Assembly (NCBI GenBank): GCA_035533755.1
Contig: DATLTC010000064.1
Span: 1 to 44,298, forward strand
DNA length: 44,298 nucleotides
Direction of reading: 5' to 3'
Source of the DNA: Gemmatimonadaceae bacterium
Lineage (GTDB): Bacteria > Gemmatimonadota > Gemmatimonadetes > Gemmatimonadales > Gemmatimonadaceae
The position numbers and the translations under genes were made by a program. Positions 11,826-44,298 of the stretch are shown piece after piece. Every line of letters starts with the position of its first letter. The stretch's first letter is position 1. The notes beneath the pieces are model-generated. The model did no database searches. It was not told the origin of the DNA and saw only the letters and a list, made by a program, of their open reading frames with translations.

Positions 11826-12116
11826 TCAGATGAACGACTCGGTCTGCATCACGGAGGCGTGCAGGTGCTCGCCCGGCTCGAGGTGGGCTTTCATGTCGGC
11901 CAGCGCGGCCACCAGGATCGCGGCCTGGTCCTCCGGCGTGATCGTGAGCCAGAGGGTGGCGTGGCCGGGCCAGGCCCGCGTGCCCTCCAGCCGTCCGGTG
12001 GATCCGGCGCCGATGCCGCGGCCGATCTGCGTGTAGCCGCGGGCCCCGTGCTTCTCCAGCAGTTGAGGGATGCGGTGCTCATCGGCGCCCGCATGGATAA
12101 TGAAAATGGTCTTCAC
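11826..12116 (-). CDS. PII-like signalling protein linked to RND pump
   Basis: 96 residues starting M-K-T-I-F-I-I-H-A-G, with alternating strands and helices and the segment G-A-R-G-Y-T-Q-I-G-R-G-I-G-A-G, close to the Y-T...G-x-G loop of PII proteins and PII-NG/CutA-like relatives. Such small ferredoxin-fold proteins are known next to heavy-metal RND efflux genes, where they are thought to sense the substrate or the energy state. Its ATG overlaps the RND stop (ATGA), so it is made together with the pump. The classical uridylylated T-loop is not evident. Nucleotide or metal binding cannot be decided from the sequence. Confidence 0.72.
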   Translation of the reverse strand: MKTIFIIHAGADEHRIPQLLEKHGARGYTQIGRGIGAGSTGRLEGTRAWPGHATLWLTITPEDQAAILVAALADMKAHLEPGEHLHASVMQTESFI

Positions 12117-15100: not shown

Positions 15101-15286
15101 CACTTCGGTCGGCGAGGCGCCGGGCATGGTGGAGATGACGTCGATCATCGGAACGGAGATCTGCGGCTCCTCCTCGCGCGGCGTGGCGATGATGCCGATG
15201 GCGCCGAGGATCAGCGACGCCACGGCGATCAGCGGCGTGAGCTTGGAGTGCAGGAAGGCGCGCGCGATGCGACCGGCGATACCCAT
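12113..15286 (-). CDS. RND efflux pump inner-membrane subunit (pump 1)
   Basis: 1057-residue proton-driven RND permease. It has an N-terminal TM1, a large periplasmic loop beginning R-E-E-E-P-Q-I-S-V-P, a TM2-TM6 block and a second periplasmic loop followed by TM8-TM12, the usual duplicated layout. The TM4 proton relay reads I-L-V-D-D-A-I-V-V-V-E-N, the two-Asp form of drug-type (HAE) pumps rather than the D-G-A-V form of CusA/CzcA. The downstream PII-like gene is nevertheless of a kind usually found with metal pumps, so the substrate stays open. It follows the membrane fusion gene by 2 nt. Confidence 0.93.
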   Translation of the reverse strand: MGIAGRIARAFLHSKLTPLIAVASLILGAIGIIATPREEEPQISVPMIDVISTMPGASPTEVENLVSRPIERRMWEIPGVDYVYSTSTEGMSLVTVRFKVGENQETSVSKVHAKLFADADQAPPGVSPPLIKPHSIDDVPVLTLTLHGGGYGSNELRQMALHLEAEIRTVPDVAQTFVVGGEPKQMRVTIDPVRLAASGVTPGEVSMALGGANARLQAGEFTADDSVFRVDVGAPLVTPADVGSVVVTTRGGHPIYLRDVADVQEGFAERTNYVSHAARDSTPESAVTIAVSKRHGSNATVITRAVIDRVNATRGRVLPAGVAVDVTRDYGQTAGEKARELMMHLALATLSVTLLIGLVLGWREALVVLIAVPVTLALTLFAYYALGYTLNRITLFALIFSIGILVDDAIVVVENIYRHLRLGDRPPDVAAVEAVDEVGNPTILATFTVIAAILPMAFVSGMMGPYMRPIPVGASFAMLASLGVAFIITPYVSYRLLKGHVAKTTVPHDALHEPEEATKPAHWYARIMTPLIERTRLRMAFYAGTVLLLIGSVALLFIGAVKVKMLPFDNKNEFQVVLDLPAGASLETSAAAAEQVAAYVRHVPEVESAEVYAGTAAPFNFNGLVRHYFMRRGDNVADVQVNLVGKGERSRQSHAIAVAVRPGIDSIAQRYHASAKIAEIPPGPPVLATLVAEVYGPSDSARLKTAIDVRHVFETTPGVVDVDWTLQAPQAKRAFRVDRAQAAEAGASVDEITQTLALALSGAPAGLMAEPTAREGVEIVPRLARDRRSSVDALLSIPVATAHGPQPLARFVHVVPEVLQSQRMRKNLRPVIYVTGDVAGAVEAPVYAILKMNKALDTLRVDGQPIHIYNAVQPATLDETAVKWDGEWQVTIEVFRDLGLAFAVVLILIYVLVVGWFQSFTVPLVIMAPIPLTLIGILPGHALTGAFFTATSMIGMIALAGIIVRNSILLVDFIQLAEDRGRSLREAVIEAGAVRFRPIALTAAAVVVGGIVMVLDPIFQGLAVALMSGAVVATLLTMVVVPLLYWELRSRQEAHAK

Positions 15287-18589: not shown

Positions 18590-21500
18590 CTAGTCGGCGC
18601 CCACCGGGCCCAGCTCGGCCGGCACGGGCAGGCCGCGGCGCCGCGCCATCCAGCCCCCGGCCCGCCGGCTCACCGCGTCGAGGTAGGTGTACGCCACCGG
18701 CGTGATGTACAGCGTGATGAACTGCGAGAAGAACAGTCCGCCCACCACCGCGATGCCCAGCGGACGGCGCGCTTCGGCGCCCGCGCCCACCGACAGCGCG
18801 ATCGGCAGCGTCCCGAGCAGGGCCGCCATGGTCGTCATCATGATCGGGCGGAACCGGATGAGGCACGCCTGGATGATGGCCTCCGACGCCGGCAGATGCT
18901 GCGTGCGCTCGGCCTCGATCGCGAAGTCGATCATCATGATCGCGTTCTTCTTCACCAGGCCCACCAGCAGGATGATCCCCACGAAGGCGTAGATGCTCAG
19001 ATCCACGCGGAAGATCAACAGCGTGAGCAGCGCGCCGAACGCCGCGAACGGCAGCCCCGAGAGGATGGTCAGCGGATGGATGAAGCTCTCGTACAGGATG
19101 CCGAGCACCGTGTAGATGACGAAGATGGCCAGGACGAGCAGCATGAGCAGCCCCGACTGGGCGGACTGGAACGCCTGCGCGGCGCCCGCGAAGCTGGTGC
19201 TGATCGACGCCGGCACCACGTTGGCGGCCACGCGCTGGACGGCCGCCGTGGCATCGCCCAGCGCCACATTGGGCGCCAGATCGAACGAGATCGTCACGGC
19301 CGGCAGCTGGCCGGCGTGGTTCACGGTGAGCGGCCCGGTGGTCTTGGACACCGTGGACACGGCGCTCAACGGCACGAGCGCGCCGTTGTTGGCGCGGATG
19401 TAGAGCAGCGACAGGGCGGCGAGGTCGCGCTGATACTGCGGCTCCATCTCCATCACCACCCAGTACTCGTTGTTGGGCGTGTAGATGGTGGACACCTGGC
19501 GCGATCCGTAGGCGTCGTACAGCGCCATCTCCACCTGCTGCGCGGTGACGCCCAGCGACGCGGCGCGCTCGCGGTCGATCTCGATGCTCGCCTGCGGGTT
19601 GCCCAGCTGGAGGTCGGTGGAAACGTCCAGCAGCTGCGGCAGCTTCCGGACCGAATCGAGGAGCTGCTGGGAGGCCGCGTACAGCGCCTGGATGTCGGAG
19701 CCCTGCAACGTGAACTGATACTGCCCCTTGGCCACCCGCCCGCCGATCTGGATGGCCGGCGGGTTGGACATGTACACGACCATTCCCGGCACCTTGCCGA
19801 GCTTGGGGCGCATCTCGGCCATGAAATCATTGGCGCTCAGGCGGTGGCCCAGCGCCTTGAGGCTGATGAACATCCGCCCCTGGTTGGACGACTGCGTGAA
19901 CCCGCCGGCGCCCACGGCCGACATGAACCCGGCCACGTTCGTGTCGCGCTGGACGATGGCCGCCAGCTGCTGCTGGTGCGCCACCATGTCGTCGTACGAT
20001 GCGCCCTGCGCGGCCTCGGTGGTCACGCGGATCTGGCCTGTGTCCTCGTCGGGGATGAACCCCTTGGGGATGATCACGAACAGCGCGGCCGTGCCGGCCA
20101 GGATGGCCACCGCGAACACGACCATGGCCCGCCGGTGGCGCATGACCACGTGGAGCGACGCCTCGTACCGCGCGAGGATCCACTGCCATCCGCGTTCCGT
20201 GAAGTTGAACAGCCGCCCGTGCTGCTCGGCGCCGTGCGGTCGCAGGAACAGGCTGGCGAGCATGGGCGTGAGGCTCAGCGACACGAATCCCGACACCAGG
20301 ATGGCCACGGCGATCGTCACCGCGAATTCGTGGAACAGCCGGCCCATGATCCCGCTCAGGAACAGGATGGGGATGAACACGGCGGTGAGCGACAGCGTCA
20401 TCGACAGGATCGTGAATCCGACCTCGCGGGCGCCGGCGAAGGCCGCCTCCATGGGCGCTTTGCCCATCTCCATGTGGCGGACGATGTTCTCCAGCATCAC
20501 GATCGCGTCGTCCACCACGAAGCCCACGGCCAGCGTGAGCGCCATCAACGACAGGTTGTCCAGGCTGTAGCCGAGCAGGTACATCACGGCGAAGGTGCCG
20601 ATGACCGAGATCGGCAGCGCCAGGCTGGGGATGGCGGTGGCCGAGACGTTGCGCAGGAACACGAAGATCACCATCACGACCAGGAACAGCGTGAGCACGA
20701 GGGTGAACTTCACCTCGTGCACCGACTGGTCGATGGACAGCGAGCGGTCGTACAGGGTGTGGATCTCCACCGCGCCCGGGATCGTGGTCCGGAGCTGGTT
20801 CATGAGATTCTTGACCGCGGTGGCCACGGCCACGGTGTTGGTGCCGGGCTGCCGCTGGATGGCGAGCACGATCGAGCGTTCGCCGTCGTACCACCCCGCG
20901 GCCTTGTTGTTCTGCACGTCGTCGAGCACGTTGCCCAGGTCGCCCAGCCGCACCGGCGCGCCGTTGCGATACGTCACGACGAGCCGCTGGAACCCGGCGG
21001 CGTTCTGCATCTGGCCGTTGGCCTGCACGGTATAGGCGCGATTGGGGCCCCAGAGCACGCCGGTGGGCAGGTTCACGTTCTGCGACGCGATCGCGCTGGC
21101 CACCTCGTCGATCCCGATCTTGCGGTAGGCCAGGGCGTTGGGATCGAGTTGCACGCGCACGGCGTACTTCTGCGACCCGAACACCTGCACCTGGGCCACG
21201 CCGCTGACCATCGAGATCCGCTGCGCCATCACGGTCTCGCCGTATTCGTCGAGCTGCGAGAAGGGCAGGAGCTTGGACGTGAGCGCGAAGTAGATGATGG
21301 CCTGGTCGGCCGGGTTGACCTTCTGGTACGACGGCGGGAGGATGCCGGCCGGGAGTTGGCCCAGCACCTTGCCGATGGCCGACTGGACGTCCTGCGCCGC
21401 GGCGTCGATGTTGCGGTCGAGCGAGAACTGGATGGTGATGGACGTGGAGCCGAGTCCGCTCGTGGACGTCATGTTGTCGATGCCGGCGATGGTCGAGAAC

Positions 21501-21709
21501 TGCTTCTCGAGGGGTGTCGCCACGGCGGCGGCCATCGTCTCCGGGCTGGCGCCCGGCAGATTGGCGTTCACGGTGATGGTCGGGTAATCCACCGTGGGGA
21601 GATCGCTCACCGGCAGCTGCCGGTAGGCGCTGATGCCGAACACGAGGATCCCGATCATGACGAGCACCGTCATGACCGGCCGGCGAATGAACAGATCCGA
21701 GAGGCTCAT
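18590..21709 (-). CDS. RND efflux pump inner-membrane subunit (pump 2, MdtB/MuxB-like)
   Basis: 1039-residue HAE1-type drug/proton antiporter. The N-terminus M-S-L-S-D-L-F-I-R-R-P-V-M-T, the stretch V-S-D-L-P-T-V-D-Y-P-T-I-T-V and the TM4 relay G-F-V-V-D-D-A-I-V-M-L-E-N are typical of MdtB, MdtC and MuxB pumps. All 12 membrane segments and both porter loops are present at normal length. The start ATG overlaps the membrane fusion stop (ATGA). It is the last gene of the operon, ending 33 nt before a strong terminator. Substrates are likely lipophilic drugs, bile-salt-like compounds or host metabolites; nothing in the sequence narrows this. Confidence 0.95.
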   Translation of the reverse strand: MSLSDLFIRRPVMTVLVMIGILVFGISAYRQLPVSDLPTVDYPTITVNANLPGASPETMAAAVATPLEKQFSTIAGIDNMTSTSGLGSTSITIQFSLDRNIDAAAQDVQSAIGKVLGQLPAGILPPSYQKVNPADQAIIYFALTSKLLPFSQLDEYGETVMAQRISMVSGVAQVQVFGSQKYAVRVQLDPNALAYRKIGIDEVASAIASQNVNLPTGVLWGPNRAYTVQANGQMQNAAGFQRLVVTYRNGAPVRLGDLGNVLDDVQNNKAAGWYDGERSIVLAIQRQPGTNTVAVATAVKNLMNQLRTTIPGAVEIHTLYDRSLSIDQSVHEVKFTLVLTLFLVVMVIFVFLRNVSATAIPSLALPISVIGTFAVMYLLGYSLDNLSLMALTLAVGFVVDDAIVMLENIVRHMEMGKAPMEAAFAGAREVGFTILSMTLSLTAVFIPILFLSGIMGRLFHEFAVTIAVAILVSGFVSLSLTPMLASLFLRPHGAEQHGRLFNFTERGWQWILARYEASLHVVMRHRRAMVVFAVAILAGTAALFVIIPKGFIPDEDTGQIRVTTEAAQGASYDDMVAHQQQLAAIVQRDTNVAGFMSAVGAGGFTQSSNQGRMFISLKALGHRLSANDFMAEMRPKLGKVPGMVVYMSNPPAIQIGGRVAKGQYQFTLQGSDIQALYAASQQLLDSVRKLPQLLDVSTDLQLGNPQASIEIDRERAASLGVTAQQVEMALYDAYGSRQVSTIYTPNNEYWVVMEMEPQYQRDLAALSLLYIRANNGALVPLSAVSTVSKTTGPLTVNHAGQLPAVTISFDLAPNVALGDATAAVQRVAANVVPASISTSFAGAAQAFQSAQSGLLMLLVLAIFVIYTVLGILYESFIHPLTILSGLPFAAFGALLTLLIFRVDLSIYAFVGIILLVGLVKKNAIMMIDFAIEAERTQHLPASEAIIQACLIRFRPIMMTTMAALLGTLPIALSVGAGAEARRPLGIAVVGGLFFSQFITLYITPVAYTYLDAVSRRAGGWMARRRGLPVPAELGPVGAD

Positions 21710-31163: not shown

Positions 31164-33929
31164 ATGCCGTCAATAATATCGCGTCGTGTCGTCCGCGCCG
31201 CCCTCCTCGGGCTCGTCGCGGCCGCCCCCCTGGCCGCCCAGCAGGCGGCCGCCCCCGATCTGGTGCGCGAGGCATCGGTGGAGGGGATCATCGCCTACCG
31301 CATCCCCGCCAACGGGCTCCGGGTGCTGCTCTATCCCGATCAGACCAAGCCGCAGACCCTGGTGAACGTCACCTACCTGGTGGGATCGCGCGAGGAAGGG
31401 TACGGCGAGACGGGCATGGCGCATCTGCTCGAGCACCTGATGGTCAAGGGGACCACGGCGCATGCCGACATCGCGAAGGAGCTGGAAACGCGCGGCGTCG
31501 AGTACAACGCCAGCACGTCGTTCGACCGCACCAACTACTTCGAGCTGTTCGCCGCCGCCGACACGACGCTCGACTGGACGCTGGCGATGGAAGCCGACCG
31601 GATGGTGCACAGCCGCATCGCCAGGGCCGACCTCGATCAGGAGATGACGGTCGTCCGCAACGAGTTCGAGAGCGGGGAGAACAGCCCCACGCTGGTGACG
31701 ATCAAGCGCGTGCTGGGCAGCGCGTACCTGTTCCATGCCTACGGCCGGTTGCCCATCGGGTCGCGGTCCGACATCGAGAACGTGCCGATCGACCGCCTGC
31801 AGGCGTTCTACCGGCGCTACTACCAGCCCGACAACGCCGTGCTGCTCATTGCCGGCAAGTTCGACACCACGCGCGCGCTGGCGCTGGTGCGCCGGTACTT
31901 CGCGCCGATCGCGCGGCCGGCGCGGGTGCTCGAGCCCACGTACACCGTGGAACCGACCCAGGACGGCGAGCGCGAGGTGTGGGTGCGCCGCGCCGGGGCC
32001 GAGCAGGACCTGGTGGCGTTCTTCCACACGCCGGCCGCATCGAGCGGCGACGCGGCGGCGGTGGACGTGCTGCAGCACGTGCTGGTGGACGCGCCGTCGG
32101 GCCGGCTGTACAAGGCCCTGGTGCTCACGAAGAAGGCGAGCGCGGTGAACGCGCTCCCGCTCCAGTTGCACGATCCGGGCGGCCTGATGCTCATCGCCAC
32201 GCTGAGAACGGAGGACACGCTCCCGGCGGCGCGCTCGGCGATGCTCGAGGCGCTCCACGCGATCGCGACCACGCAGCCCCCCACCGTTGAAGAGGTGGAC
32301 CGGGCCAAGGGCGCCATTGCCAGCGCGTACGCGCTGGCGCTCAACAACACGGCCGGGGTGGGGCTCGCCCTGTCGGACTGGATGGGCGTGGGCGACTGGC
32401 GGCTGTTCTTCCTGCACCGCGACCAGGTGGGCAAGGTCACGCCGGCCGACGTGCAGCGCGTGGCGCAGGCGTACCTCAAGCCGTCCAACCGCACGCTGGG
32501 GTTCTTCGTTCCCGCGGCGCAGCCCGACCGCGCGGAGATCCCGGCGGCGCCCGACATCGCGAAGCTGGTGCAGGGCTACACGGGCCAGGCCGTGGCAGCC
32601 ACCGGGGAGGCGTTCGATCCGTCGCCGGCCAACATCATGGCGCATACGACGCATTTCACCACCGGGGCCGGCCTCAAGGTGGCGCTGCTCGCCAAGAAGA
32701 CGCGCGGCGAGAGCGTGAACGCCATGCTCACGCTCCGGTTCGGCGACGAGAAGACGCTGCAGCATCGCGGCGACGCGGTCTCGATGGCGGCGGCGATGCT
32801 CATGCGCGGCACCACGAAGCACACGCGCCAGCAACTCACCGACTCCCTCAACGTGCTCAAATCGCGCCTGTCGATGAGCGGCAACGGCAATTACGTGGCG
32901 GTGACCATCCAGTCCACGCGCCAGAACCTGCCGGCCGTGCTGTCGCTGGCCGACGAGATCCTGCGGATGCCGGCGTTCGATTCCACGGAATACTCGGCGC
33001 TCATCAGCCAGCAGATCGCGGCCATCGAATCGGCGTCCAAGGAGCCGACTGCGCTGGCCATCAACGCGATGCAGCGGAAGTTCTCGCGCTATCCCGCCGG
33101 CGACCCGCGCTACGCGGGCTCGATGGACGAGGAGCTGGCCGATCTGCGCGCGCTCTCGCTGGCCGACGTGCGCCGGGCGTACGTCGATTTCTTCGGCGCC
33201 GGCACGGGCGAGGCGGCGGTGGTCGGCGACTTCGATGCCGACGCGGTGCGCGCCCAGCTCGACACGATGTTCGCCGGCTGGAGGACCCGTAATCCCTACG
33301 CGGTCATGCGCAACGTGCTGTTCCCGATCGATGGCACGCGCGAGCGCATCGACACGCCGGACAAGGCCAACGCGATGTTCGTGGCGGGCACCGATTTCCC
33401 GCTGTCCGATCACGACCCGGACTACGCGGCGATGCAGCTGGCCAACTACATGATGGGGGGCGGCGTGCTCACCTCCCGTCTCACCCAGCGCATCCGCGTC
33501 AAGGACGGCCTGAGCTACGCCACGCAGTCCATCTTCGTGGCCGATTCACGCGTGCCGCTGGGGCAGTTCATCGCCATCGCCATCCACGCGCCGCAGAACG
33601 GCGACCGGGTCACGCGGGATTTCTTCGACGAGATCGACAGCGCGCGCGCCGGTGGATTCACCGCCGCCGAACTGGAGAAGGCGCGGACGGGACTGCTCGA
33701 GTCCAACCGCCTCATGCGGTCGCAGGACGGCGCGCTCGCCGGGCAGCTGGTGACCGACATGCTGCTCGGGCGGACGATGCAGTTCCAGGCGGACAACGAA
33801 CAGCAGATCCGGTCCGCGACGCTCGCCCAGGTGAACGCGGCGTTCCGCAAGTACATTGATCCGGCGAAGATCGCCGTGGTCTGGGCGGGTGACGAGTCGA
33901 AGGCGAAAGCGGGGCCGCCCAAACCCTAG
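31164..33929 (+). CDS. Secreted two-domain M16 zinc metallopeptidase
   Basis: 921 residues with a signal peptide ending P-L-A-A-Q-Q. The inverted zinc motif H87-L-L-E-H91 and the third ligand E167 (76 residues after the second His, the usual spacing) make the N-terminal half catalytic. The C-terminal half (from about residue 480) is the inactive M16 repeat with the substrate-positioning Arg/Tyr segment R-I-R-V-K-D-G-L-S-Y. It would degrade peptides in the periplasm, as PqqL/YhjJ-type proteins do. The frame is open upstream, but the start is set at the signal peptide. The stop shares a CTAG with the converging fusion gene. Confidence 0.93.
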   Translation: MPSIISRRVVRAALLGLVAAAPLAAQQAAAPDLVREASVEGIIAYRIPANGLRVLLYPDQTKPQTLVNVTYLVGSREEGYGETGMAHLLEHLMVKGTTAHADIAKELETRGVEYNASTSFDRTNYFELFAAADTTLDWTLAMEADRMVHSRIARADLDQEMTVVRNEFESGENSPTLVTIKRVLGSAYLFHAYGRLPIGSRSDIENVPIDRLQAFYRRYYQPDNAVLLIAGKFDTTRALALVRRYFAPIARPARVLEPTYTVEPTQDGEREVWVRRAGAEQDLVAFFHTPAASSGDAAAVDVLQHVLVDAPSGRLYKALVLTKKASAVNALPLQLHDPGGLMLIATLRTEDTLPAARSAMLEALHAIATTQPPTVEEVDRAKGAIASAYALALNNTAGVGLALSDWMGVGDWRLFFLHRDQVGKVTPADVQRVAQAYLKPSNRTLGFFVPAAQPDRAEIPAAPDIAKLVQGYTGQAVAATGEAFDPSPANIMAHTTHFTTGAGLKVALLAKKTRGESVNAMLTLRFGDEKTLQHRGDAVSMAAAMLMRGTTKHTRQQLTDSLNVLKSRLSMSGNGNYVAVTIQSTRQNLPAVLSLADEILRMPAFDSTEYSALISQQIAAIESASKEPTALAINAMQRKFSRYPAGDPRYAGSMDEELADLRALSLADVRRAYVDFFGAGTGEAAVVGDFDADAVRAQLDTMFAGWRTRNPYAVMRNVLFPIDGTRERIDTPDKANAMFVAGTDFPLSDHDPDYAAMQLANYMMGGGVLTSRLTQRIRVKDGLSYATQSIFVADSRVPLGQFIAIAIHAPQNGDRVTRDFFDEIDSARAGGFTAAELEKARTGLLESNRLMRSQDGALAGQLVTDMLLGRTMQFQADNEQQIRSATLAQVNAAFRKYIDPAKIAVVWAGDESKAKAGPPKP

Positions 33930-36900
33930 GGCTTCGCCGCTTCCCTGGCCCGGGCCTGGCGCACGACCAGGTCCGCGGCCAGGAGCTGGGCGATGAAGTT
34001 GGATTCGTCGGTCTCGGGGGCCAGCGTCCTGAACGCCGCCGTGGCGCCCGCGAAGTCGCCGAGCGAGATCCGCGCGACCACGGCGCCGTTGCGCAGTTCG
34101 TTCACGCCCAGCCAGGGCAGGGAGTCGTGGGCGACGTCGGCGATCAGGGTGTCGGCGGCCGCCGAGGCCTGGGGGAAGTTCCACGCCGCCAACCCGTGCA
34201 CGAAGTCCACGGCGGCGCGGGCGTGCGGCGGTGCGTTGGCCCGGGCGAGGTAGGCATACACGCGACCGTAGAACGCGTCGTCGGCCACTCCCGATGAGCC
34301 GTCGTGCAGCAGCGCCTCGACGCGCACGAACGAGTGCATCCAGGAATGCCAGTCGGTGGGCGGGGTGGCGGCGGCCACCTGGCGCTCGAACCGGTCCACG
34401 CGATACACGGCGTCGGCCAGCACGGAATCGTACGGCACGCCCACGCGCTGGTCCGGCGTCATCGCGAGCACGCGGCGCAGGCGCACCTGCAGTGCCAGCG
34501 CCTCGACGCGCGGAATCTCCGGCGCCACGGCCAGCGGTTCGGTGCCGAAGCCTTGGGGGCGGCCGGCCAGCGCGGCGACGACGTTGAATCGTCCCTTGCC
34601 GAGGCTCTCCAACCCGGTGGCCTCCTGGTGCAGGAACCGCGTGCGCTCGGCGTTCAGATCGAGCACCGGGTAGTAGTCGGAGTTCACCTGCGCGTGCGTG
34701 ATCAGGTAGGGGTGGAGGATGTCGCGTCCCGCCAGGCGCATGGCGTCGAGCGCTTCGGGGCTCATGGGCACGGCGCGGCGCAGGTCGTGGGCGACGCCGG
34801 GATACCGCAGCACCTTCCAATCGGGCACGAGGGGCGTCGAGCGGTTGGAGGCGAGGATCAACACGTCGCTGTTGGAGGTGAAGAACACCTCGTACGACTT
34901 GAAGTTCTGGTCGATGGCCGCGAGCACGGAGACGACGAGCGAATCGTTCATCTCGTACAGATGCAGCCACTGGCCGAGCACGCCGTTGGCGGTGAGGTTG
35001 TTGCGCACGCGGTGGTAGAACTCCTGCGTGAACAGGCCCGAGACGCCGCTCACCCAGGGGTTGGACGGCTCCGAGATGATGAGGTCGAACTTGCGCCCGG
35101 TGGCGGCGAAATAGGATTTGGCGTCGTCGATCACGATGCGCGAGCGGGGGTCGTCGAACACGCGGTGATTGGCGGGACGGAAGGCGCGCGACGCGGCGAC
35201 CATCTCGGGCTCGATCTCCACGGTCACCACCTGCCGCACCTCGGGGCTGCCGAGCAGGAGACTGGACGTCATGCCGGAGCCCTGGCCGATGACGGCGATC
35301 TCCCTGGCGTCGGGCACGTGGGCGAGGCCGATGAGGGGGAGCAGAATCTGCGTGGCCTGGTCCTCGGCCAGCGAGCGCAAGGCGCCGGGCTCGATGGTGG
35401 AGTCTTCCCAGAACGGATCCATCGACGCGTCGGGCTTGCCGTTGGTGGCGAGCGTGAGGTAGCCGCCGGTGGTGGTGCGGCGCACGCTCACCGTGGCCGT
35501 GCGTCCATCCTTGTAGAAGGGGAAGCTGAAGGTGGTGGACGTGGGCAGGAGGCCCTGGCGATACACCCCGCTCGACAGCTTCCACAGATCGAAGCGCACG
35601 AGCAGGCCGTTGGCGAGGACGAAACAGACCGTGGCGAGCAGGAACCCGAACCGCGCGCGGGCGCGGTGATCGCGGTCGAGGGGGCTGGGGCGGAGCAGGG
35701 CCACGCCGAGCGCGATGTCCACCACGGCGCCACTGATCAGCAGCCACTTGAGGCCGAGCACCGGCATGAGCACGAGGCCGGCGATGATGACGCCGGCGAT
35801 GGAGCCCAGCGTGTTGACGCCGTACACGGTGCCGATGGCCCGTTCGCCGGCGCCGTTGCGGATGAGGATCCTGGTGATGAGCGGGAGCGTGATGCCGGCG
35901 CAGAACGTGGCCGGGAGCATGATCATCAGGCAGATCAGGTATCGCGAGAACACGAACCCGTCGTACCCGGCGTTGGTGGTGTCGAACATCCGGATGAGGC
36001 CTGCCATCCATCCGAACGACGCCATGTAGAGCGGGAGCGTGGCCACGGCCAGGGTGCCCATGACCCACTGCACGATGCCGAGAGTTCGCATGGGGTGTTC
36101 CATGGCGTCGGCCCGTCCGCGGATCCAGTACGCGCCCAGCGCGATGCCGAGGATGAACGCCGAGAGCATGAGTTCGAACGAATGCGTGGCCGCGCCGAGT
36201 ACGAGCGAGAGCATGCGGATCCACGCGATCTCGTAGATGAAGCTGGCCACCGCGGTGCCGAAGCTCACGGCGAGGAGGACGCGCCATTCCCGCGGGAGGG
36301 TGGCCGATTGTTCGATCGGTTGCGGGAGCGGCTGGGCGTCGGGGCCGTCGGTGGGATAGTACGCGCGCGAGGCGATGCCGACGCCGATGGCGACGAGGAA
36401 GTTGAGGACGCCGGCGGCCAGGAGCGTGCCCGGGAGTCCCACTTCGCCGATCAGGAAGAAGCCCGCGACGAGCGCGCCGATGGCGGCGCCGATGCTGTTG
36501 GTGAAGTAGAGCAGTCCGAGCACCCGGCCCGGCTCGGCGCGCACGTGGCGGATGGCGCCGGCGCTCATGAGTGGGAAGGTGGCGCCGAGGAGGACCGACT
36601 GCGGGAGGATGAGGAGGGCGGCGAGGGTCCACTGGACGGCCATGACGCCCAGCCCGCCGGCGCCGCCGGCCATGTGCGGAAAGACGTGCGCGTAGGCGAA
36701 GTCGGTGCTGGCGACGAAGACGTCGTGGAAGACGAATCCGATGGCGCCGACGAGGAACTCGACGCCCGCGTACCAGAGCAGCGGTTGCCGGAGGCGCGAC
36801 GAGCGGTGGCCGGCGACGAGGGCGCCGAGCGACATGCCGCCGAGGAAGATGACGAGGACGATGATCTGGGCGTATGCGGCGTGGCCGACGAACAGGCCGA

Positions 36901-36979
36901 GATAGCGCGTCCAGATGGTTTCGTAGATGAGTCCCGCAGCGCCGGAGAGGACGAACGCGAAGGCGAGAATGAGCAGCAC
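33926..36979 (-). CDS. Membrane-fused spermidine-synthase-like protein
   Basis: 1017 residues (GTG start). The first 480 or so form an MFS-like block with about 14 hydrophobic segments (opening S-G-A-A-G-L-I-Y-E). A Rossmann spermine/spermidine-synthase-like domain follows (about 530-760), and the last 250 residues are a soluble helical region. The nucleotide loop reads G-Q-G-S-G-M-T rather than G-G-G-D-G, and the catalytic-region Asp is replaced in I-I-S-E-P-S-N-P-W-V. The S-E-P-S-N-P-W-V-S-G motif is typical of this fused bacterial family, whose reaction is not established. It lies 84 nt after the serine hydrolase gene and may share its transcript. Confidence 0.88.
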   Translation of the reverse strand: MLLILAFAFVLSGAAGLIYETIWTRYLGLFVGHAAYAQIIVLVIFLGGMSLGALVAGHRSSRLRQPLLWYAGVEFLVGAIGFVFHDVFVASTDFAYAHVFPHMAGGAGGLGVMAVQWTLAALLILPQSVLLGATFPLMSAGAIRHVRAEPGRVLGLLYFTNSIGAAIGALVAGFFLIGEVGLPGTLLAAGVLNFLVAIGVGIASRAYYPTDGPDAQPLPQPIEQSATLPREWRVLLAVSFGTAVASFIYEIAWIRMLSLVLGAATHSFELMLSAFILGIALGAYWIRGRADAMEHPMRTLGIVQWVMGTLAVATLPLYMASFGWMAGLIRMFDTTNAGYDGFVFSRYLICLMIMLPATFCAGITLPLITRILIRNGAGERAIGTVYGVNTLGSIAGVIIAGLVLMPVLGLKWLLISGAVVDIALGVALLRPSPLDRDHRARARFGFLLATVCFVLANGLLVRFDLWKLSSGVYRQGLLPTSTTFSFPFYKDGRTATVSVRRTTTGGYLTLATNGKPDASMDPFWEDSTIEPGALRSLAEDQATQILLPLIGLAHVPDAREIAVIGQGSGMTSSLLLGSPEVRQVVTVEIEPEMVAASRAFRPANHRVFDDPRSRIVIDDAKSYFAATGRKFDLIISEPSNPWVSGVSGLFTQEFYHRVRNNLTANGVLGQWLHLYEMNDSLVVSVLAAIDQNFKSYEVFFTSNSDVLILASNRSTPLVPDWKVLRYPGVAHDLRRAVPMSPEALDAMRLAGRDILHPYLITHAQVNSDYYPVLDLNAERTRFLHQEATGLESLGKGRFNVVAALAGRPQGFGTEPLAVAPEIPRVEALALQVRLRRVLAMTPDQRVGVPYDSVLADAVYRVDRFERQVAAATPPTDWHSWMHSFVRVEALLHDGSSGVADDAFYGRVYAYLARANAPPHARAAVDFVHGLAAWNFPQASAAADTLIADVAHDSLPWLGVNELRNGAVVARISLGDFAGATAAFRTLAPETDESNFIAQLLAADLVVRQARAREAAKP

Positions 36980-37063: not shown

Positions 37064-37987
37064 CTAGTACGATCCGGCCTCGGGCTTCCGCGGCCAGGCC
37101 GCGACGACCGCCGCGCCGATCCTGCCCAGCGCCACCTGGGCCTCGTTGTCCACGACGTTGCGGATGTCGGCGTCCTGCTTGGTGAACCCACACACGACGA
37201 CGCGCGACTGGAGCGGGAAGAGGGCGCACTCGGTGCGCGACGAATCGATGGATCCGGTCTTGTGGGGCACGACGAGGCCGTCCACGGAGCGCTGCATGGA
37301 TTCCATATCGGCGTTGTCGGCAAGGATGGCGAGCATGGCCGAATCGGCGGCGGGGCTCACGGCGCGTCCGTTGGCGAGCAGGGCGAACAGGCGCGCCATC
37401 TCGTTGGGCGTGCTCACGCCCAGCCCGTACTTCACCGAGCTGTCCATGGCCACGCTGGTGTTCCGGAGGTAGGTCTTGGAGTGGACCTTGGTGTGCGGCA
37501 GGCCGAGCGCTTCCATCTTGTCCCACACCGGCCGGATGTCGGTGCGGTCGAGGATGAGGTTGGTGGCCGTGTTGTCGCTGAGGATGATCATGAGATTCGC
37601 GGCGTCGCCCACGGAGAGGGTGAGGCCGTCGTGCATGAACTGGAGCACGCCGCTGCCCGGCACCTTGTCGATGTCGAGCAGCGTGAGGGGATCGTCGAGC
37701 GAGATCTTCTTGCGTTGGACGAGATCGAACAGCGTGACGAGAATCGGCACCTTGATGAGGCTGGCGGTGGGGAAGGTCTCGTCGCCGCGCAGGGAGAGGC
37801 GCTCGCCGGTGTCGAGGTTGCGCACGGAATAGCCCAGCACGCCGTGGAAGGCGTGGGCGACGGAGTCGAGCGTGCGGTGCAACGCGGCGGTGTCGGCGCG
37901 GGCGTAGGTCGGGGGCGGGGTCTGGCCCGGCGTCGCGGCGGCGGGCGCGAGGCATAGGGCGGCGGCGAACAGGATGCGGCGAAGCAT
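37064..37987 (-). CDS. Class-A beta-lactamase-like serine hydrolase
   Basis: 307 residues with a signal peptide (M-L-R-R-I-L-F-A-A-A ending T-P-G-Q). The Ser-Lys dyad is S76-L-I-K79, the S-D-N motif is at 137-139 and K-T-G at 243-245, as in penicillin-binding and class A folds. The omega-loop E-x-x-L-N motif that holds the deacylating Glu166 is not found between 160 and 185, where the sequence is K-V-H-S-K-T-Y-L-R-N. It is more likely a peptidoglycan or ester hydrolase of the Beta-lactamase2 family than a working antibiotic-resistance enzyme. The ATG at 37987 is chosen for the signal peptide. Confidence 0.88.
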   Translation of the reverse strand: MLRRILFAAALCLAPAAATPGQTPPPTYARADTAALHRTLDSVAHAFHGVLGYSVRNLDTGERLSLRGDETFPTASLIKVPILVTLFDLVQRKKISLDDPLTLLDIDKVPGSGVLQFMHDGLTLSVGDAANLMIILSDNTATNLILDRTDIRPVWDKMEALGLPHTKVHSKTYLRNTSVAMDSSVKYGLGVSTPNEMARLFALLANGRAVSPAADSAMLAILADNADMESMQRSVDGLVVPHKTGSIDSSRTECALFPLQSRVVVCGFTKQDADIRNVVDNEAQVALGRIGAAVVAAWPRKPEAGSY

Positions 37988-38893: not shown

Positions 38894-39880
38894 ATGAGAC
38901 AATCGAACCTCGCCCGCGCGGCCGAGCCGCGCTCCGATGGCGGCCCAGCGGCCGCCGCCGGCGCGCCGGCAGCGAAATCCGCGGCGCCCGCCGTCGCGTC
39001 CGGGAAGCGCAGGCTGCGCACGAGCACGATCGTCCTCATCGCCATCAACGTGCCGCTGGTGGCGATCAATCTGCTGGGCCTGCCGTATTACACGGCGTCG
39101 CTGGCGGTGCGCGCCCGCCACCCGTGGCGCGACTGGCTGCAGCCGTCGGGGTACATCGGGCAGTCGGCCGGCATCGCGGCCTTCCTCATCTTCGCGTTCC
39201 TCTGGGTGTATCCGCTGCGCAAGAAGTGGCGGGGGTTGCGCTGGACCGGATCGATCGGCCGCTGGCTCGACGTGCACGTGACGTCGGCCCTCACCCTGCC
39301 GCTGTTGCTGGCCATCCACGCCGCGTGGCGGTCGGACGGCGTGATCGGCCTCGGACTGGGGGCGATGCTGGTCGTGATCGCCAGCGGCATCGTGGGCCGC
39401 TACCTGTACACGCGCATTCCCCGCGCGCGCAGCGGCATCGAGCTCACCCGCGACGAGGTGACCGCGCAACGACGCGAGCTCATCCAGCGGCTCGCGGCGG
39501 CGACCGGGCTGGAGCCGGACGCGGTGGAGGCGACGCTGGACATCGCTCCCGAGCCGGAGGCGCAGGAGAGCGCATGGCGCATCCTCTGGCGTCTGGTGAC
39601 CAACGACCTGACGCGGTGGCGCCGCATGCGGGAGCTGCGCGGGCGCTGGACCGCGCTCTCTCCGAACAGTCGGCCGCTGGATCATCGGGCCATGCGCGAG
39701 GCGTTGCGGCTCGCCGATCGCGAGATGTCGCTGGCCCAGCAGTCGCGGATGCTCGACGCGACGCAGCGGGTGTTCCGCTACTGGCACGTGGCCCATCGCC
39801 CGTTCGCGATCACCGCTCTCGTCGCGGTGGTGATTCACGTGGCCGTCGTGGTCGCCGTGGGCGCGACCTGGTTCCGGTAG
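38894..39880 (+). CDS. Di-haem b-type membrane cytochrome
   Basis: 328 residues: a Pro/Ala-rich cytoplasmic-looking tail to residue 40, then hydrophobic segments at about 43-62, 88-107, 127-145, 148-169 and 300-325. Two helices each carry a pair of His exactly 14 apart: H128/H142 and H301/H315 (in W-H-V-A-H-R-P-F). That is the spacing of the bis-His ligands of the two haems in cytochrome b of bc complexes and related quinone-linked cytochromes. A soluble stretch (about 175-290) separates the helix pairs. It probably passes electrons across the membrane to or from the multihaem proteins encoded downstream. The ATG at 38894 is preferred over an open upstream extension with no protein-like features. 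Confidence 0.8.
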   Translation: MRQSNLARAAEPRSDGGPAAAAGAPAAKSAAPAVASGKRRLRTSTIVLIAINVPLVAINLLGLPYYTASLAVRARHPWRDWLQPSGYIGQSAGIAAFLIFAFLWVYPLRKKWRGLRWTGSIGRWLDVHVTSALTLPLLLAIHAAWRSDGVIGLGLGAMLVVIASGIVGRYLYTRIPRARSGIELTRDEVTAQRRELIQRLAAATGLEPDAVEATLDIAPEPEAQESAWRILWRLVTNDLTRWRRMRELRGRWTALSPNSRPLDHRAMREALRLADREMSLAQQSRMLDATQRVFRYWHVAHRPFAITALVAVVIHVAVVVAVGATWFR

Positions 39881-39889
39881 CGGACGGCG

Positions 39890-41320
39890 ATGCTGCTCAC
39901 GACGCTCGGCTTCTTCGCCCTGACCGCGTTGGCGATCTGGCTCCATCTGCGCACCACGGGCGTCGCGCACGCGCCGCCGTCGCGCGCGGGCGCGCCCTGT
40001 CCGCGCTGCAAGGCGCTCGTGCCGCCGGGCGCCACCTACTGTCCCAGTTGCGGTGTGCCGCAGCAGATCTTCGAGATGGTGCGGGCGCCGGTGTCCGCCG
40101 GCGCCGCGGATCCGGGGGGCGCGCCGAAAGCGCTGGTGCGCGCGGACATGTGCGTGGGCTGCGGCACGTGCGTGGCGTCGTGTCCGGAGCCCGGCGCGAT
40201 CACGCTGCGCGGCAAGCTCGCCGTGGTGGACGACGCGCTGTGCCAGGGGCACGGGGAATGCGTGCGCGGCTGTCCGGTGGGCGCGATCCTCGTCACCACG
40301 GGCGCGGCGGTGAACCGGGTGACCGTGCCGCTGGTGGACGAGCATTTCGAGACCAACGTGCCGGGGCTGTACATCGTCGGCGAACTGGGCGGCCGCGGCC
40401 TGATCAAGAATGCCATCAACGAAGGCAAGATGGCAATCGAGCACGTGGCCCGCGCGCTGCCGCCCGGCGAGCGACGGTCCGACGGCCACGACGACGCGGT
40501 GGACGTGGCCATCGTCGGTTCCGGGCCGGCCGGGCTGAGCGCCGGGCTCGAAGCGCTCCGCTGCGGACTGAGCTACGTGGTGCTCGAGCAGGGCTCACTC
40601 TCCGACACGGTGCGCAAGTATCCGCGTCACAAGCTGCTGCTCGCCGAGCCGGTGCACGTGCCGCTGTACGGCGATCTCTGGGTGGCCGACGGGTCGAAGG
40701 AGACGCTGCTGAAAGTGTGGGAGACGATCGTGGCCAACACGGGGCTGGCCGTGCGCACGGGGGAGAAGGTGCAGCAGATCGTGCGCGACGGCGCCGTGTT
40801 CCGCGTGGAGACGACGCGCGGGTCACAGGCCGCGCGCCGGGTGGTGCTGGCCATGGGACGGCGCGGCAGCCCGCGCCGGCTCGGCGTGCCCGGCGAGGAC
40901 CGCGACACCGTGTTCTACGACGTGGTCGAGATGGAGGCGTTCGCCGGGCGGCGCGTGCTCGTGGTGGGCGGCGGCGACAGTGCCGTGGAGACGGCGCTCG
41001 GCTTGGCCAACCAGGCGGGCACGGAGGTGCGGATCTCGTATCGCGGCGAGACGTTCGCGCGGATCGCCGACCGGAATCGCGCCAAGGTCGATCGCGCGAT
41101 CGCCGCCGGGAAGGTGACGCCGCACTTCGGCAGTCACGTGCGCGAGATTCGCGAGGATGTGGTGGTCCTCGGGTCGGGCGAGGCGTCGATCATCCTGCCG
41201 AGCGACTTCGTCGTCATCCGCATCGGCGGGGACGCGCCGTACGCGTTCCTCGAGCGGCTGGGTGTGCGCATCGTCGAGAAGGACGTTCCGCTGCCTCCCC
41301 GGCAAGACCTGGCCGGATGA
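39890..41320 (+). CDS. Membrane-anchored [4Fe-4S]/FAD oxidoreductase
   Basis: 476 residues. The order is: TM anchor (2-19), zinc ribbon (C37, C40, C51, C54), a first [4Fe-4S] motif (C88, C91, C94, C98), a second with His in place of one Cys (C118, H121, C124, C128), a V-P-G-L-Y-I-V-G-E segment (157-165), and then an FAD domain (G-S-G-P-A-G at 210-215) with a nested NAD(P)H domain (G-G-G-D-S at 360-364). The C-terminus I-L-P-S-D-F-V-V-I-R-I-G-G is YpdA/thioredoxin-reductase-like. There is no redox CxxC in the flavin half, so it is not a thioredoxin reductase. It likely moves electrons from NAD(P)H through FAD and the clusters to the cytochrome b. It begins 9 nt after that gene. Confidence 0.85.
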   Translation: MLLTTLGFFALTALAIWLHLRTTGVAHAPPSRAGAPCPRCKALVPPGATYCPSCGVPQQIFEMVRAPVSAGAADPGGAPKALVRADMCVGCGTCVASCPEPGAITLRGKLAVVDDALCQGHGECVRGCPVGAILVTTGAAVNRVTVPLVDEHFETNVPGLYIVGELGGRGLIKNAINEGKMAIEHVARALPPGERRSDGHDDAVDVAIVGSGPAGLSAGLEALRCGLSYVVLEQGSLSDTVRKYPRHKLLLAEPVHVPLYGDLWVADGSKETLLKVWETIVANTGLAVRTGEKVQQIVRDGAVFRVETTRGSQAARRVVLAMGRRGSPRRLGVPGEDRDTVFYDVVEMEAFAGRRVLVVGGGDSAVETALGLANQAGTEVRISYRGETFARIADRNRAKVDRAIAAGKVTPHFGSHVREIREDVVVLGSGEASIILPSDFVVIRIGGDAPYAFLERLGVRIVEKDVPLPPRQDLAG

Positions 41321-43330
41321 ATGCGGACGCTTCTCCTGCTGTGCGGCGCCATGCTGCTGGGACTGGCCCCACGGGCGTCCGCCCAGATCTCGCCGGGCCC
41401 GCTCGCCCGGGTGCATCGGGACCTGGAGGGTCCGACGAACTGCGCCCAGTGCCACGGGCTGCACCGCGAACCGATGTCGCAGATGTGCCTCGCCTGTCAT
41501 AAGGACGTGGCGTGGCTCATCAGCCAGGGCCGGGGGCTGCACGCCCGCGAGGTGACGGCGCAGAAGAAGGAATGCGCCAGCTGCCACCCGGACCACGCCG
41601 GCGTGAACTTCCAATTGATCGCCTGGCCGGGCGGATCCGAGGCAGGGTTCGACCACCGGCTGGCCGGCTGGGCGCTCGAGGGCAAACACGCTCAGGCAAA
41701 GTGCGGGGACTGCCACACGGCCAAGTTCCGCGTGGGCCCGGCCGCGGCGCTGTCCAAGCGCCAGGGATCCGCCGGCTGGCTGGGGCTGGAGACGACGTGC
41801 GCGTCGTGCCATCGCGCCGACGACGTGCACCGGGGATCGCTGGGCGCGAGTTGCGAGCGCTGCCACGACACGCGCGGGTGGAAGCCGGCGCCGAAGTTCG
41901 ATCACGGCCAGACCGACTATCCGTTGACGGGCCGACACGCCGACGTCGCGTGCGACAAGTGCCACCTCGCGCCGCGGCTCGGCATCGCCCCCGGTCCGGA
42001 CGGCGTGCGGATCCCACGATTCAAGCCCATCGCGTTCGCGCAGTGCTCGTCCTGTCACGAGGATCCGCACCGGGGCAAGCTGTCGGGCCGGTGCGCGGAC
42101 TGCCATGTGACGCGTGGTTGGGCGATCATCGACCGGGCGGAGTTCAATCACTCGGTCACGCGGTTCCCGCTCCTGGGCATGCACCGCGGCGTGTCGTGCA
42201 CCGCGTGCCATCGCGCCAATCTCACGCTCAAGGATCCGCCGTTCGCCGCCTGCGCGTCGTGTCACGCCGACCCGCATGTCGGCGAGGCGACGCTGGGCGG
42301 CAAGCCGGTGGACTGCGCCGCGTGCCACCGCGTGGAGGGGTTCAGGCCGTCGACGTTCACCCTGGCGCAACACGCGGCGACCCGATATCCGCTCACCGGG
42401 CGGCACGCCCTGTTGCCGTGCTCGGCCTGCCACGCCAAGGTGGGCGGCACGGTGAGGCTCCGCCTACCGTTCGCGCACTGCGCGGACTGCCACGCCGATG
42501 CGCACGGGGGGCAGCTCGCCGGCCGGCCGGACCGAGGCAGCTGCGAGGGCTGCCACACGGACGCCGGATGGAAGCCCAGCACATTCTCGATCGCCGCGCA
42601 CGCCAGGTTGCGGGTCCCGCTCGACGGGCGGCACGGGACCATCGCCTGCGCGGCGTGTCACGCGGCGGTCCGGCCCGGCCTCCCGCGACTCACGATGTCG
42701 CGGGCGTCGCTCGGCACGGCGCACGTAGTGCTGCGGGTGCCGGAGACCGCGTGCGCGGATTGCCACGTGGATCCGCACGCCGGCCGGTACGCGGCGGGCG
42801 GTGCGTTCCCGGTGCCGGGCGGCTGCCGGTCGTGCCACGACACGCGCCGCTTCCGTCCGTCGACGGTGGACGTGGCGATGCACGCGCGATTCTCGTTTGC
42901 CCTCGACGGAGCGCACCGCGCCGTCGCGTGCGTGGCGTGCCACGCCGAGATGCGCGCGCCGGAGGCCGCTTCGACCCTCGTGCTGGCGCCCCGGGGCGTG
43001 GCGTCGTTGCCGTTCACCCACACGCGGTCGACCACGTGCCGGTCGTGCCACGAGGGCGACAGTCCGCACGGGGCGCAGTTCGCGAGTCGCAAGGACGGCG
43101 GCGCGTGCGAGAGCTGCCACGGCACCGACTCGTTCGCGCCGGCGTCGCGGTTCGATCATGACCGCGATGCGTCGTTCCCGCTCGCCGGCGCCCACGCCAA
43201 CGTGCCGTGCGCCGCGTGCCACAGGACAGAAACCACCGGCGCGGGCAAGGCCCGCGTCGTCTACCGGCCGCTCTCCGGAAGGTGCGAGAGCTGTCACGCC
43301 CGCCACGGGGCGACGAGGAGTACGCCATGA
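41321..43330 (+). CDS. Secreted 23-haem c-type cytochrome
   Basis: 669 residues with a signal peptide (M-R-T-L-L-L-L ending R-A-S-A-Q). I count 23 CxxCH haem-attachment motifs, about one per 29 residues. Many sit in a loose repeat of the form F-x-H...[FY]-P-L-x-G-x-H-x(4-5)-C-x-x-C-H, together with D-P-H-x-G segments that supply distal His ligands. The density and layout fit an elongated haem wire in the periplasm or on the cell surface. There is no membrane segment after the signal peptide. The ATG follows the flavoprotein TGA with no gap and the stop overlaps the next cytochrome (ATGA), so the three are translated as a set. Maturation needs the CcmABCDEF system found at the left of the window. 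Confidence 0.93.
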   Translation: MRTLLLLCGAMLLGLAPRASAQISPGPLARVHRDLEGPTNCAQCHGLHREPMSQMCLACHKDVAWLISQGRGLHAREVTAQKKECASCHPDHAGVNFQLIAWPGGSEAGFDHRLAGWALEGKHAQAKCGDCHTAKFRVGPAAALSKRQGSAGWLGLETTCASCHRADDVHRGSLGASCERCHDTRGWKPAPKFDHGQTDYPLTGRHADVACDKCHLAPRLGIAPGPDGVRIPRFKPIAFAQCSSCHEDPHRGKLSGRCADCHVTRGWAIIDRAEFNHSVTRFPLLGMHRGVSCTACHRANLTLKDPPFAACASCHADPHVGEATLGGKPVDCAACHRVEGFRPSTFTLAQHAATRYPLTGRHALLPCSACHAKVGGTVRLRLPFAHCADCHADAHGGQLAGRPDRGSCEGCHTDAGWKPSTFSIAAHARLRVPLDGRHGTIACAACHAAVRPGLPRLTMSRASLGTAHVVLRVPETACADCHVDPHAGRYAAGGAFPVPGGCRSCHDTRRFRPSTVDVAMHARFSFALDGAHRAVACVACHAEMRAPEAASTLVLAPRGVASLPFTHTRSTTCRSCHEGDSPHGAQFASRKDGGACESCHGTDSFAPASRFDHDRDASFPLAGAHANVPCAACHRTETTGAGKARVVYRPLSGRCESCHARHGATRSTP

Positions 43331-44298
43331 GACGGTCGTACCGAAGGCTGGCCGCGCTCGCGTTCGCGGTGTGGTCGCTGCCGGCCGCCGCGCGCGGCCA
43401 GGACAACCCGCACGGTCCCACGATCGGCGCGTGCAGCGCCTGCCATCGCCCCGACGGGTGGACGCCGGTGTCGATCAGCAAGACGTTCCGCCACGCGCCG
43501 GCGACCTTCCCGCTCGAAGGAGCGCACGCGCACACGCCGTGCACGGCGTGTCATCGCACGCTCGATTTCGCGAACACGCCCACCGCGTGCGCGTCCTGCC
43601 ACACCGACGTGCATCACGGCGAATTCGGCACGCAGTGCGCGCGGTGCCACACGCCGCGCAGTTTCATCGACCCACCGGCCATGCGGCGGATGCACGAGAC
43701 CACGCAGTTCCCGCTGCGCGGCATCCACGCCGTGGCGGCCTGTGAATCGTGCCACCTTCCGTCGCTGCCCGGCCGGAGCGCGTACGTGAATCGTCCCACG
43801 ACATGCTTCGGATGCCACGCCGCGGAATACCGTCAGGCCAAAGCGCCGGACCACGTGGCGAGCGCATTCCCGCAGGACTGTTCGCAGTGCCACGGGCTGA
43901 TGACGTGGCAGGGCGCCGGATTCAATCATGCGACCACGGGTTTCCCGCTCACCGGGGCGCACCTCGCGGTGGCCTGCGCCGGCTGTCACGGCGACGGCGT
44001 GTACCGGGGCAAACCCACGGCGTGCGTGTCGTGTCACCAGGCGGACTACGCGAAGACGTCGCGTCCGCCCCACGCCGCGGCGGGATTCCCGACCACGTGC
44101 GAGTCGTGCCACAGCACCGCCAACTGGACGAGCGCGACGTTCGATCACAACGCCACCAAGTTCCCGCTCACGGGCGCGCACGTGACCCTGGCCTGCAATG
44201 CCTGCCATGGCGACGGCGTGTACGCCGGCAAGCCGACCGCCTGCGTGTCATGCCACCTCGCGGACTACAACGGCACGAACAATCCGGCCCACGCCGCG
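43327..44298 (+). CDS. Second multihaem c-type cytochrome, cut by window edge
   Basis: 324 codons are visible and the frame is open to the right edge. A signal peptide (M-R-R-S-Y-R-R, hydrophobic core, then A-A-R-G-Q) is followed by 12 CxxCH motifs. The C-terminal visible part is a tandem repeat with a 73-residue period carrying three haems per unit. Each unit opens F-P-L-T-G-A-H and contains C-H-G-D-G-V-Y and K-P-T-A-C-V-S-C-H. It begins in an ATGA overlap with the 23-haem cytochrome. Its final haem number and any C-terminal anchor lie outside the window. A role in the same electron chain is inferred from coupling and design. Confidence 0.93.
   Translation, partial: MRRSYRRLAALAFAVWSLPAAARGQDNPHGPTIGACSACHRPDGWTPVSISKTFRHAPATFPLEGAHAHTPCTACHRTLDFANTPTACASCHTDVHHGEFGTQCARCHTPRSFIDPPAMRRMHETTQFPLRGIHAVAACESCHLPSLPGRSAYVNRPTTCFGCHAAEYRQAKAPDHVASAFPQDCSQCHGLMTWQGAGFNHATTGFPLTGAHLAVACAGCHGDGVYRGKPTACVSCHQADYAKTSRPPHAAAGFPTTCESCHSTANWTSATFDHNATKFPLTGAHVTLACNACHGDGVYAGKPTACVSCHLADYNGTNNPAHAA
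43942..44298 (+). repeat. 219-bp in-frame tandem repeat in the multihaem cytochrome
   Basis: Unit one runs 43942-44160 and unit two starts at 44161 and is cut by the edge. Both begin with codons for F-P-L-T-G-A-H, and the offset is exactly 219 nt (73 codons). Each full unit encodes three CxxCH motifs. A looser F-P-L-[ER]-G copy is also seen earlier in the gene. Confidence 0.85.

Follow-up and report, generated by a model that had tools for sequence, protein, structure and literature searches.

The right-hand end of this contig raises the question of where a compact set of redox genes, encoding a membrane cytochrome b, a flavoprotein and two giant multihaem cytochromes, would draw its electrons from and on which side of the cell envelope it would deliver them. 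The window analysed is the whole stretch of 44,298 nucleotides, that is, the entire contig C64 of a Gemmatimonadaceae genome (3.2 Mb, 98% complete), which its relatives likewise put in Gemmatimonadota. Our answer, which we regard as probable, is that these are four genes of an operon of five, which would encode a PCC3-type conduit for electrons across the cell envelope with a cytoplasmic flavin reductase of its own.

The original prediction described four plus-strand genes with gaps of 9 nt and 0 nt and a 4-nt overlap, and the ORF coordinates agree. The gene for cytochrome b (38894-39880; 328 aa), a five-helix, di-haem protein predicted to take electrons across the inner membrane, is followed after 9 nt by that of the FAD/Fe-S flavoprotein (39890-41320; 476 aa) and then, with no gap, by that of the exported cytochrome MHC1 (41321-43330), a predicted periplasm-spanning wire. 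The N-terminal part of MHC2 (43327-44298), a second giant exported cytochrome and the predicted outer or extracellular wire, overlaps MHC1 by 4 nt, and its ORF is open at the contig end, with no stop. Exactly 23 CxxCH motifs were counted in MHC1 and 12 in this part of MHC2, in agreement with the 23 and at least 12 first reported, and 1000 shuffles of MHC1 gave a mean of 0.24 and a maximum of 3. The operon is tightly packed and under purifying selection, with dN/dS values against a same-genus relative of 0.25 for the flavoprotein, 0.26 for cytochrome b and 0.35 for MHC1. No promoter or terminator signal stood out from chance in the scans for them. At the opposite end of the contig, the minus strand carries the cytochrome c maturation genes ccmE, ccmD-like, ccmC, ccmB and ccmA (88-2682), as would be expected where c-type cytochromes of large size are produced. 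Also on the minus strand are two RND efflux transporters (ACR_tran; 12113-15286 and 18590-21709), a 1017-aa fused membrane/spermidine-synthase-like protein (33926-36979), a close counterpart of which also lies upstream of cytochrome b in a same-genus genome (G210), and a class A beta-lactamase-like protein (37064-37987; PF13354, E 5e-54) that falls below the NCBIfam class A cut-off.

The identification of the first gene product as a di-haem b-type membrane protein was borne out by two conserved histidine pairs, the members of each being 14 residues apart. In the AlphaFold model the helices lie at residues 43-61, 87-111, 121-143, 149-173 and approximately 293-322, and the haem-ligand motifs, encoded like the rest on the plus strand, are W124-x3-H128-x13-H142 in TM3 (39263-39319) and W297-x3-H301-x13-H315 in TM5 (39782-39838). 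All four histidines are invariant in an alignment of 16 sequences from several phyla, as is an SGxxG motif in TM4 (S164, G165, G168; 39383-39397, plus strand). At least two HX13H pairs were present in 71 of 72 cytochrome b loci, the single exception being truncated by a contig end. The protein matched no Pfam or NCBIfam family, including PF01794, the NOX/FRE ferric reductase domain, though the HX13H pairs are present, and a Foldseek comparison of its model with the PDB returned no significant fold match. Because the phyla are interleaved in the cytochrome b tree, in which supported branches require at least three label changes each in Gemmatimonadota, Acidobacteriota and Bacteroidota, horizontal transfer is likely.

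The second protein had been described as a membrane-anchored FAD/[4Fe-4S] protein, in keeping with its N-terminal hydrophobic anchor and its Pfam matches to Pyr_redox_3, Fer4_21/Fer4_10 and a zinc ribbon. Behind the anchor lie the zinc ribbon, which only some family members have, then a two-cluster ferredoxin, and finally an FAD/NAD(P) domain of thioredoxin-reductase-like type that is devoid of the CxxC active site. In the ferredoxin segment (40151-40273, plus strand), the second motif reads C118xxH121xxC124xxxC128P, a histidine replacing the second cysteine; this histidine (CxxHxxCxxxCP) is kept in 64 of 67 homologues, while C88, C94, C98, C118, C124 and C128 are conserved in 67/67 and C91 in 52/67. 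Downstream of the GGGDSA motif, R385 and R391 are nearly invariant and would fit NADPH. The nearest relatives of the FAD/NAD(P) domain are YpdA/Bdr and thioredoxin-reductase-like flavoproteins, from which the present protein differs by its membrane anchor, its zinc ribbon, two Fe-S clusters with CxxHxxC and the lack of the CxxC site. Identity with the YpdA bacillithiol disulfide reductase was rejected (TIGR04018, 165 bits against a cut-off of 340), and a flavoprotein match in Pseudoalteromonas, which sits among glycosyltransferases, was set aside.

The two multihaem cytochromes vary in different ways. MHC1 carries 17, 20 or 23-24 haems across loci, with 18, 19 or 22 each confined to a single locus; the alignment shows that the differences are mostly whole three-haem blocks, whereas the MHC2 of relatives ranges from about 10 to 64 haems, some of these counts being limited by contig ends. 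The N-terminal motif of MHC1 is here QISPGPLARVH, and the general form SPGxLxxxH occurs on exactly one cytochrome in 55 of 56 loci, this being of the MHC1 type in those displayed. The simplest reading of these sequence features is that MHC1 would bridge the fixed gap between the two membranes, its N-terminus docking on cytochrome b, and that MHC2 would lie at the outer membrane or farther out, a place that sets no limit on its length. A PDB sequence search with the MHC2 of a relative returned no match.

The original prediction had remarked that no porin was visible, an absence that proved to be an artefact of the contig end, as a predicted outer-membrane barrel gene is found on another contig of the same genome, C31, and in relatives. 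C31 opens inside a multihaem reading frame (1-797, nine CxxCH), which is followed, with a 4-nt overlap, by a gene for a protein of 548 aa, hereafter gene 5. The multihaem tail carries the C-terminal cap FPIYSGxHxxxWxxCxxCH ... GYxYxSxxCYxCHPxG, as does the MHC2 of relatives; it also contains one CxxxCH (CTGACH) instead of CxxCH (L042:1-797). From the gene order of relatives, the presence in the genome of a single cytochrome b and a single gene 5, and the shared cap, we infer that C64 and C31 are adjacent, MHC2 continuing into the C31 tail and gene 5 following it. Near-identical repeats are the usual cause of assembly breaks, and the ends of these two contigs lie within repeats that are 92-93% identical, which explains why no exact-overlap join between them was found. 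Gene 5 encodes a small N-terminal beta domain with a weak FlgT_C-like match and an aromatic C-terminus (...SYRF). The model for a relative (L005), of low confidence with a mean pLDDT of 57, has 22 beta strands after the N-terminal domain, and its PDB matches are outer-membrane barrels, including MOMP and AlgE (best E 7e-10); a PDB search with the gene 5 sequence gave no match. Gene 5 is thus a predicted outer-membrane beta-barrel.

The search for the same gene order across genomes, as the original prediction had proposed, showed that the cluster recurs, with the barrel as a fifth gene, in at least four phyla, complete five-gene clusters being found in Gemmatimonadota, Acidobacteriota, Bacteroidota and Eisenbacteria. 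Genomes positive for the cytochrome b profile numbered 31 of the 298 Gemmatimonadota, 26 of the 247 Acidobacteriota and 39 of the 395 from the Bacteroidota group, with further positives in Eisenbacteria, these shares being rough given that samples were drawn evenly and thresholds differed between searches. Among 72 cytochrome b loci, 62 have a linked flavoprotein, 54 two multihaem ORFs and 42 gene 5, and all five parts stand together in about 34. Within the 298 Gemmatimonadota genomes, gene 5 was detected in 34, 29 of which are also positive for cytochrome b, leaving two with cytochrome b alone and five with gene 5 alone, a co-occurrence for which shared ancestry would inflate any p-value. The plasmid pEMTOL02 of Emticicia oligotrophica DSM 17448 has the complete order of cytochrome b, flavoprotein, 23-haem cytochrome, 40-haem cytochrome and gene 5, and this cluster adjoins a ccsA cytochrome-assembly gene. 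In several Bacteroidota and some Gemmatimonadota clusters a membrane-anchored protein of approximately 200 aa adjoins cytochrome b, one of these having TPR repeats (L171:8603-9202).

Related modules occur on other plasmids. In the small ones of Salinimonas iocasae (L057:9986-13472) and Acetobacter aceti (L058:6537-9259), a 2Fe-2S/FAD/NAD reductase is combined with a five-helix cytochrome b of the related kind and with a cytochrome of 7 haems, and copper/metal resistance genes lie nearby. That of Sphingobium herbicidovorans (L066:6043-11218) encodes, besides a cNMP-binding/FAD/4Fe-4S protein, a cytochrome b in which both WX3HX13H motifs are present and a 10-haem cytochrome that is extended at its N-terminus; its gene table shows no porin. 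Motifs resembling SPGxLxxxH also begin cytochromes of these related plasmid modules, including the 7-haem ones.

Taken together, the parts point to a trans-envelope conduit, an architecture that is well supported and in which the location of each protein is a predicted one. Electrons would enter on the cytoplasmic side, where the membrane-anchored flavoprotein would pass them from NAD(P)H (or ferredoxin) to FAD and on to its two Fe-S clusters; the two b-haems of cytochrome b, bound between the histidines of TM3 and TM5, would then carry them across the inner membrane to MHC1, a periplasmic wire of 23 haems and near-fixed length. Through the barrel encoded by gene 5 they would finally reach MHC2, whose wire, of variable length, would be at the cell surface or outside it, and an outside acceptor. 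The overall logic would be that of a ferric reductase or NADPH oxidase whose functions are divided between two proteins and whose outer acceptor is a haem wire. The operon supports the order first proposed, NAD(P)H - FAD/Fe-S - haem b - haem c wire, whichever way the electrons run, the role of NAD(P)H being a predicted one.

The loci in which the flavoprotein is not linked to cytochrome b bear on the nature of the electron partner. These are ten, of which five lie at contig ends, two have the gene elsewhere in the genome, two have an FNR-type replacement and one is a lone cytochrome b (L174). According to the original prediction, cytochromes occurring independently of the flavoprotein in relatives would speak against the chain, and such independence was seen in a weak form: in two Acidobacteriota clusters no flavoprotein gene is adjacent, yet it is present, unlinked, in both genomes, and in two further Acidobacteriota loci (L107 and L109) an FNR-type FAD/NAD/[2Fe-2S] reductase, that is, an NAD(P)H-flavin reductase, takes its place immediately upstream of cytochrome b. 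The related modules on the S. iocasae and A. aceti plasmids likewise have an FNR-type reductase in this position. The domain type of the flavoprotein and its replacement by FNR-type enzymes make NAD(P)H the likely partner, and the strongest argument for a donor of this type is that two unrelated flavin folds, each combining a nicotinamide site with FAD and Fe-S, stand beside the same cytochrome b. It has been proposed that the matching inner-membrane protein of PCC3 and PCC4 exchanges electrons with quinone (PMC5566968), and among the inner-membrane proteins through which electrons enter extracellular transfer the best known are quinol oxidases (PMC6295460). Cytochrome b could accordingly exchange electrons with the quinone pool, with the flavoprotein in an accessory capacity such as regulation, repair or a second point of entry, as the two Acidobacteriota clusters with no flavoprotein gene alongside might suggest. 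We consider this unlikely, given that the flavoprotein is linked in 62 of the 72 loci and kept elsewhere in both of those Acidobacteriota genomes, and that an accessory role is hard to square with a swap for an unrelated NAD(P)H-flavin reductase. More tentatively, we envisage that a conduit fed by NAD(P)H may be quinone-independent, tying the cytoplasmic NAD(P)H (or ferredoxin) pool directly to the outside in a single hard-wired chain, with interchangeable flavin modules (thioredoxin-reductase-like with 4Fe-4S, FNR-like with 2Fe-2S) on the same cytochrome b.

As for direction, outward flow is favoured on the present evidence; from NAD(P)H it is energetically downhill, and by established energetics NAD(P)+ could be reduced with electrons from the positive outside only in an uphill transfer. 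This argues against an inward mode, in which the cell would take up extracellular electrons, e.g., from Fe(II), and gain reducing power by passing them to NAD(P)+ or ferredoxin, as does the absence of RuBisCO from the genome (3.2 Mb, 98% complete), and thus of any sign of Calvin-cycle demand. In its favor, the genome encodes two haem-copper oxidases, and PCC3 has been discussed mainly in iron oxidisers (PMC10734462, PMC12442390). Neither the oxidases nor the absence of RuBisCO settles the direction, and we regard inward flow as doubtful. It is very improbable that the haem proteins stay inside the cell as a periplasmic electron reservoir or feed a periplasmic reductase, since, despite the related Sphingobium module with its ten-haem cytochrome and no porin in its gene table, and a cell location of both cytochromes that rests on prediction, a barrel-type gene 5 lies consistently beside MHC2 in four phyla and MHC2 is unconstrained in length, unlike the nearly fixed MHC1.

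A conduit linked to NAD(P)H would have wider implications. The link of PCC3 to metabolism has so far been hypothetical; a flavin enzyme of the NAD(P)H type at its inner end, both conserved and replaceable, would supply the answer and tie the disposal or uptake of external electrons to the pyridine-nucleotide balance and not to respiration alone. Among the Gemmatimonadota, Acidobacteriota and Bacteroidota genomes sampled, roughly a tenth would join the carriers of this kind of conduit, and the plasmid copy in the isolate E. oligotrophica DSM 17448 makes the system open to testing.

Several known systems share part of this design. In NADPH oxidases two b-haems, bound by histidines with the HX13H spacing, receive their electrons from an FNR-type domain, and the present system is like the NOX/FRE proteins in having an NAD(P)H-FAD module that would feed two b-haems, with HX13H pairs, across the membrane; it differs in its separate proteins, its mostly thioredoxin-reductase-like flavin fold, its extra Fe-S clusters and the cytochrome wire as outer acceptor. 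With MtrCAB/MtoAB and the OmbB-OmaB-OmcB of Geobacter it shares a barrel that holds or docks multihaem wires, but the cytochromes of those systems are of the ten-haem MtrA type or have 8 or 12 haems, and electrons enter there from quinol via CymA, CbcL or ImcH. A canonical Mtr/Mto complex (MtrA-type model TIGR03508, DmsE-family decahaem, 37 bits against a cut-off of 192) and an Hmc-type complex (HmcA model, 28-36 bits against 400) were both rejected. The porin-less modules of cytochrome b and cytochrome c encountered here have small cytochromes, unlike the giant MHC1 and MHC2, and the Sphingobium plasmid pairs a WX3HX13H cytochrome b with a thioredoxin-reductase-like FAD/cNMP/4Fe-4S protein. 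PCC4 has the same inner-membrane motif, other redox genes nearby and three smaller periplasmic cytochromes of 4, 5 and 10 haems, with no extracellular one (PMC5566968); it was rejected as an identity for a system with two cytochromes of 23 and at least 21 haems.

The closest likeness is to PCC3, in which a porin is accompanied by two kinds of cytochrome very rich in haems, one extracellular and one periplasmic, and by a protein of the inner membrane that has been compared with ferric reductase (He et al. 2017, PMC5566968); its function is untested according to PMC12442390. The cytochrome b described here fits that inner-membrane protein in its size of approximately 300 aa, five helices, two WX3HX13H motifs in TM3 and TM5 and SGxxG in TM4 (PMC5566968). 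In Gallionellaceae the periplasmic cytochrome of PCC3 has 21, 24 or 27 haems, stepping by three as MHC1 mostly does, and the extracellular one a variable 10-35 (PMC10734462); these compare with 23 haems in the predictedly periplasmic MHC1 of the window, 17-24 in that of relatives, and at least 12 plus nine CxxCH in the MHC2 of this genome, predicted to be extracellular. A porin gene is likewise present, its linkage in this genome spanning the contig gap, with 22 strands modelled for gene 5, fewer than in many PCC3 porins, for which up to 42 are reported. Four of the five parts, likened by description and motifs and with MHC2 taken at its predicted location, match a published system (PMC5566968, PMC10734462), and the conduit, which the original prediction had put forward as a candidate undescribed one, is not categorically new. 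The five-gene cluster was not found described for these phyla in the open-access literature. PCC3 has been described in Proteobacteria and with no flavoprotein, in contrast to the flavoprotein-linked clusters of Gemmatimonadota, Acidobacteriota, Bacteroidota and Eisenbacteria, and the novelty lies in the flavin enzyme attached to a PCC3-type conduit and in the phyla that carry it.
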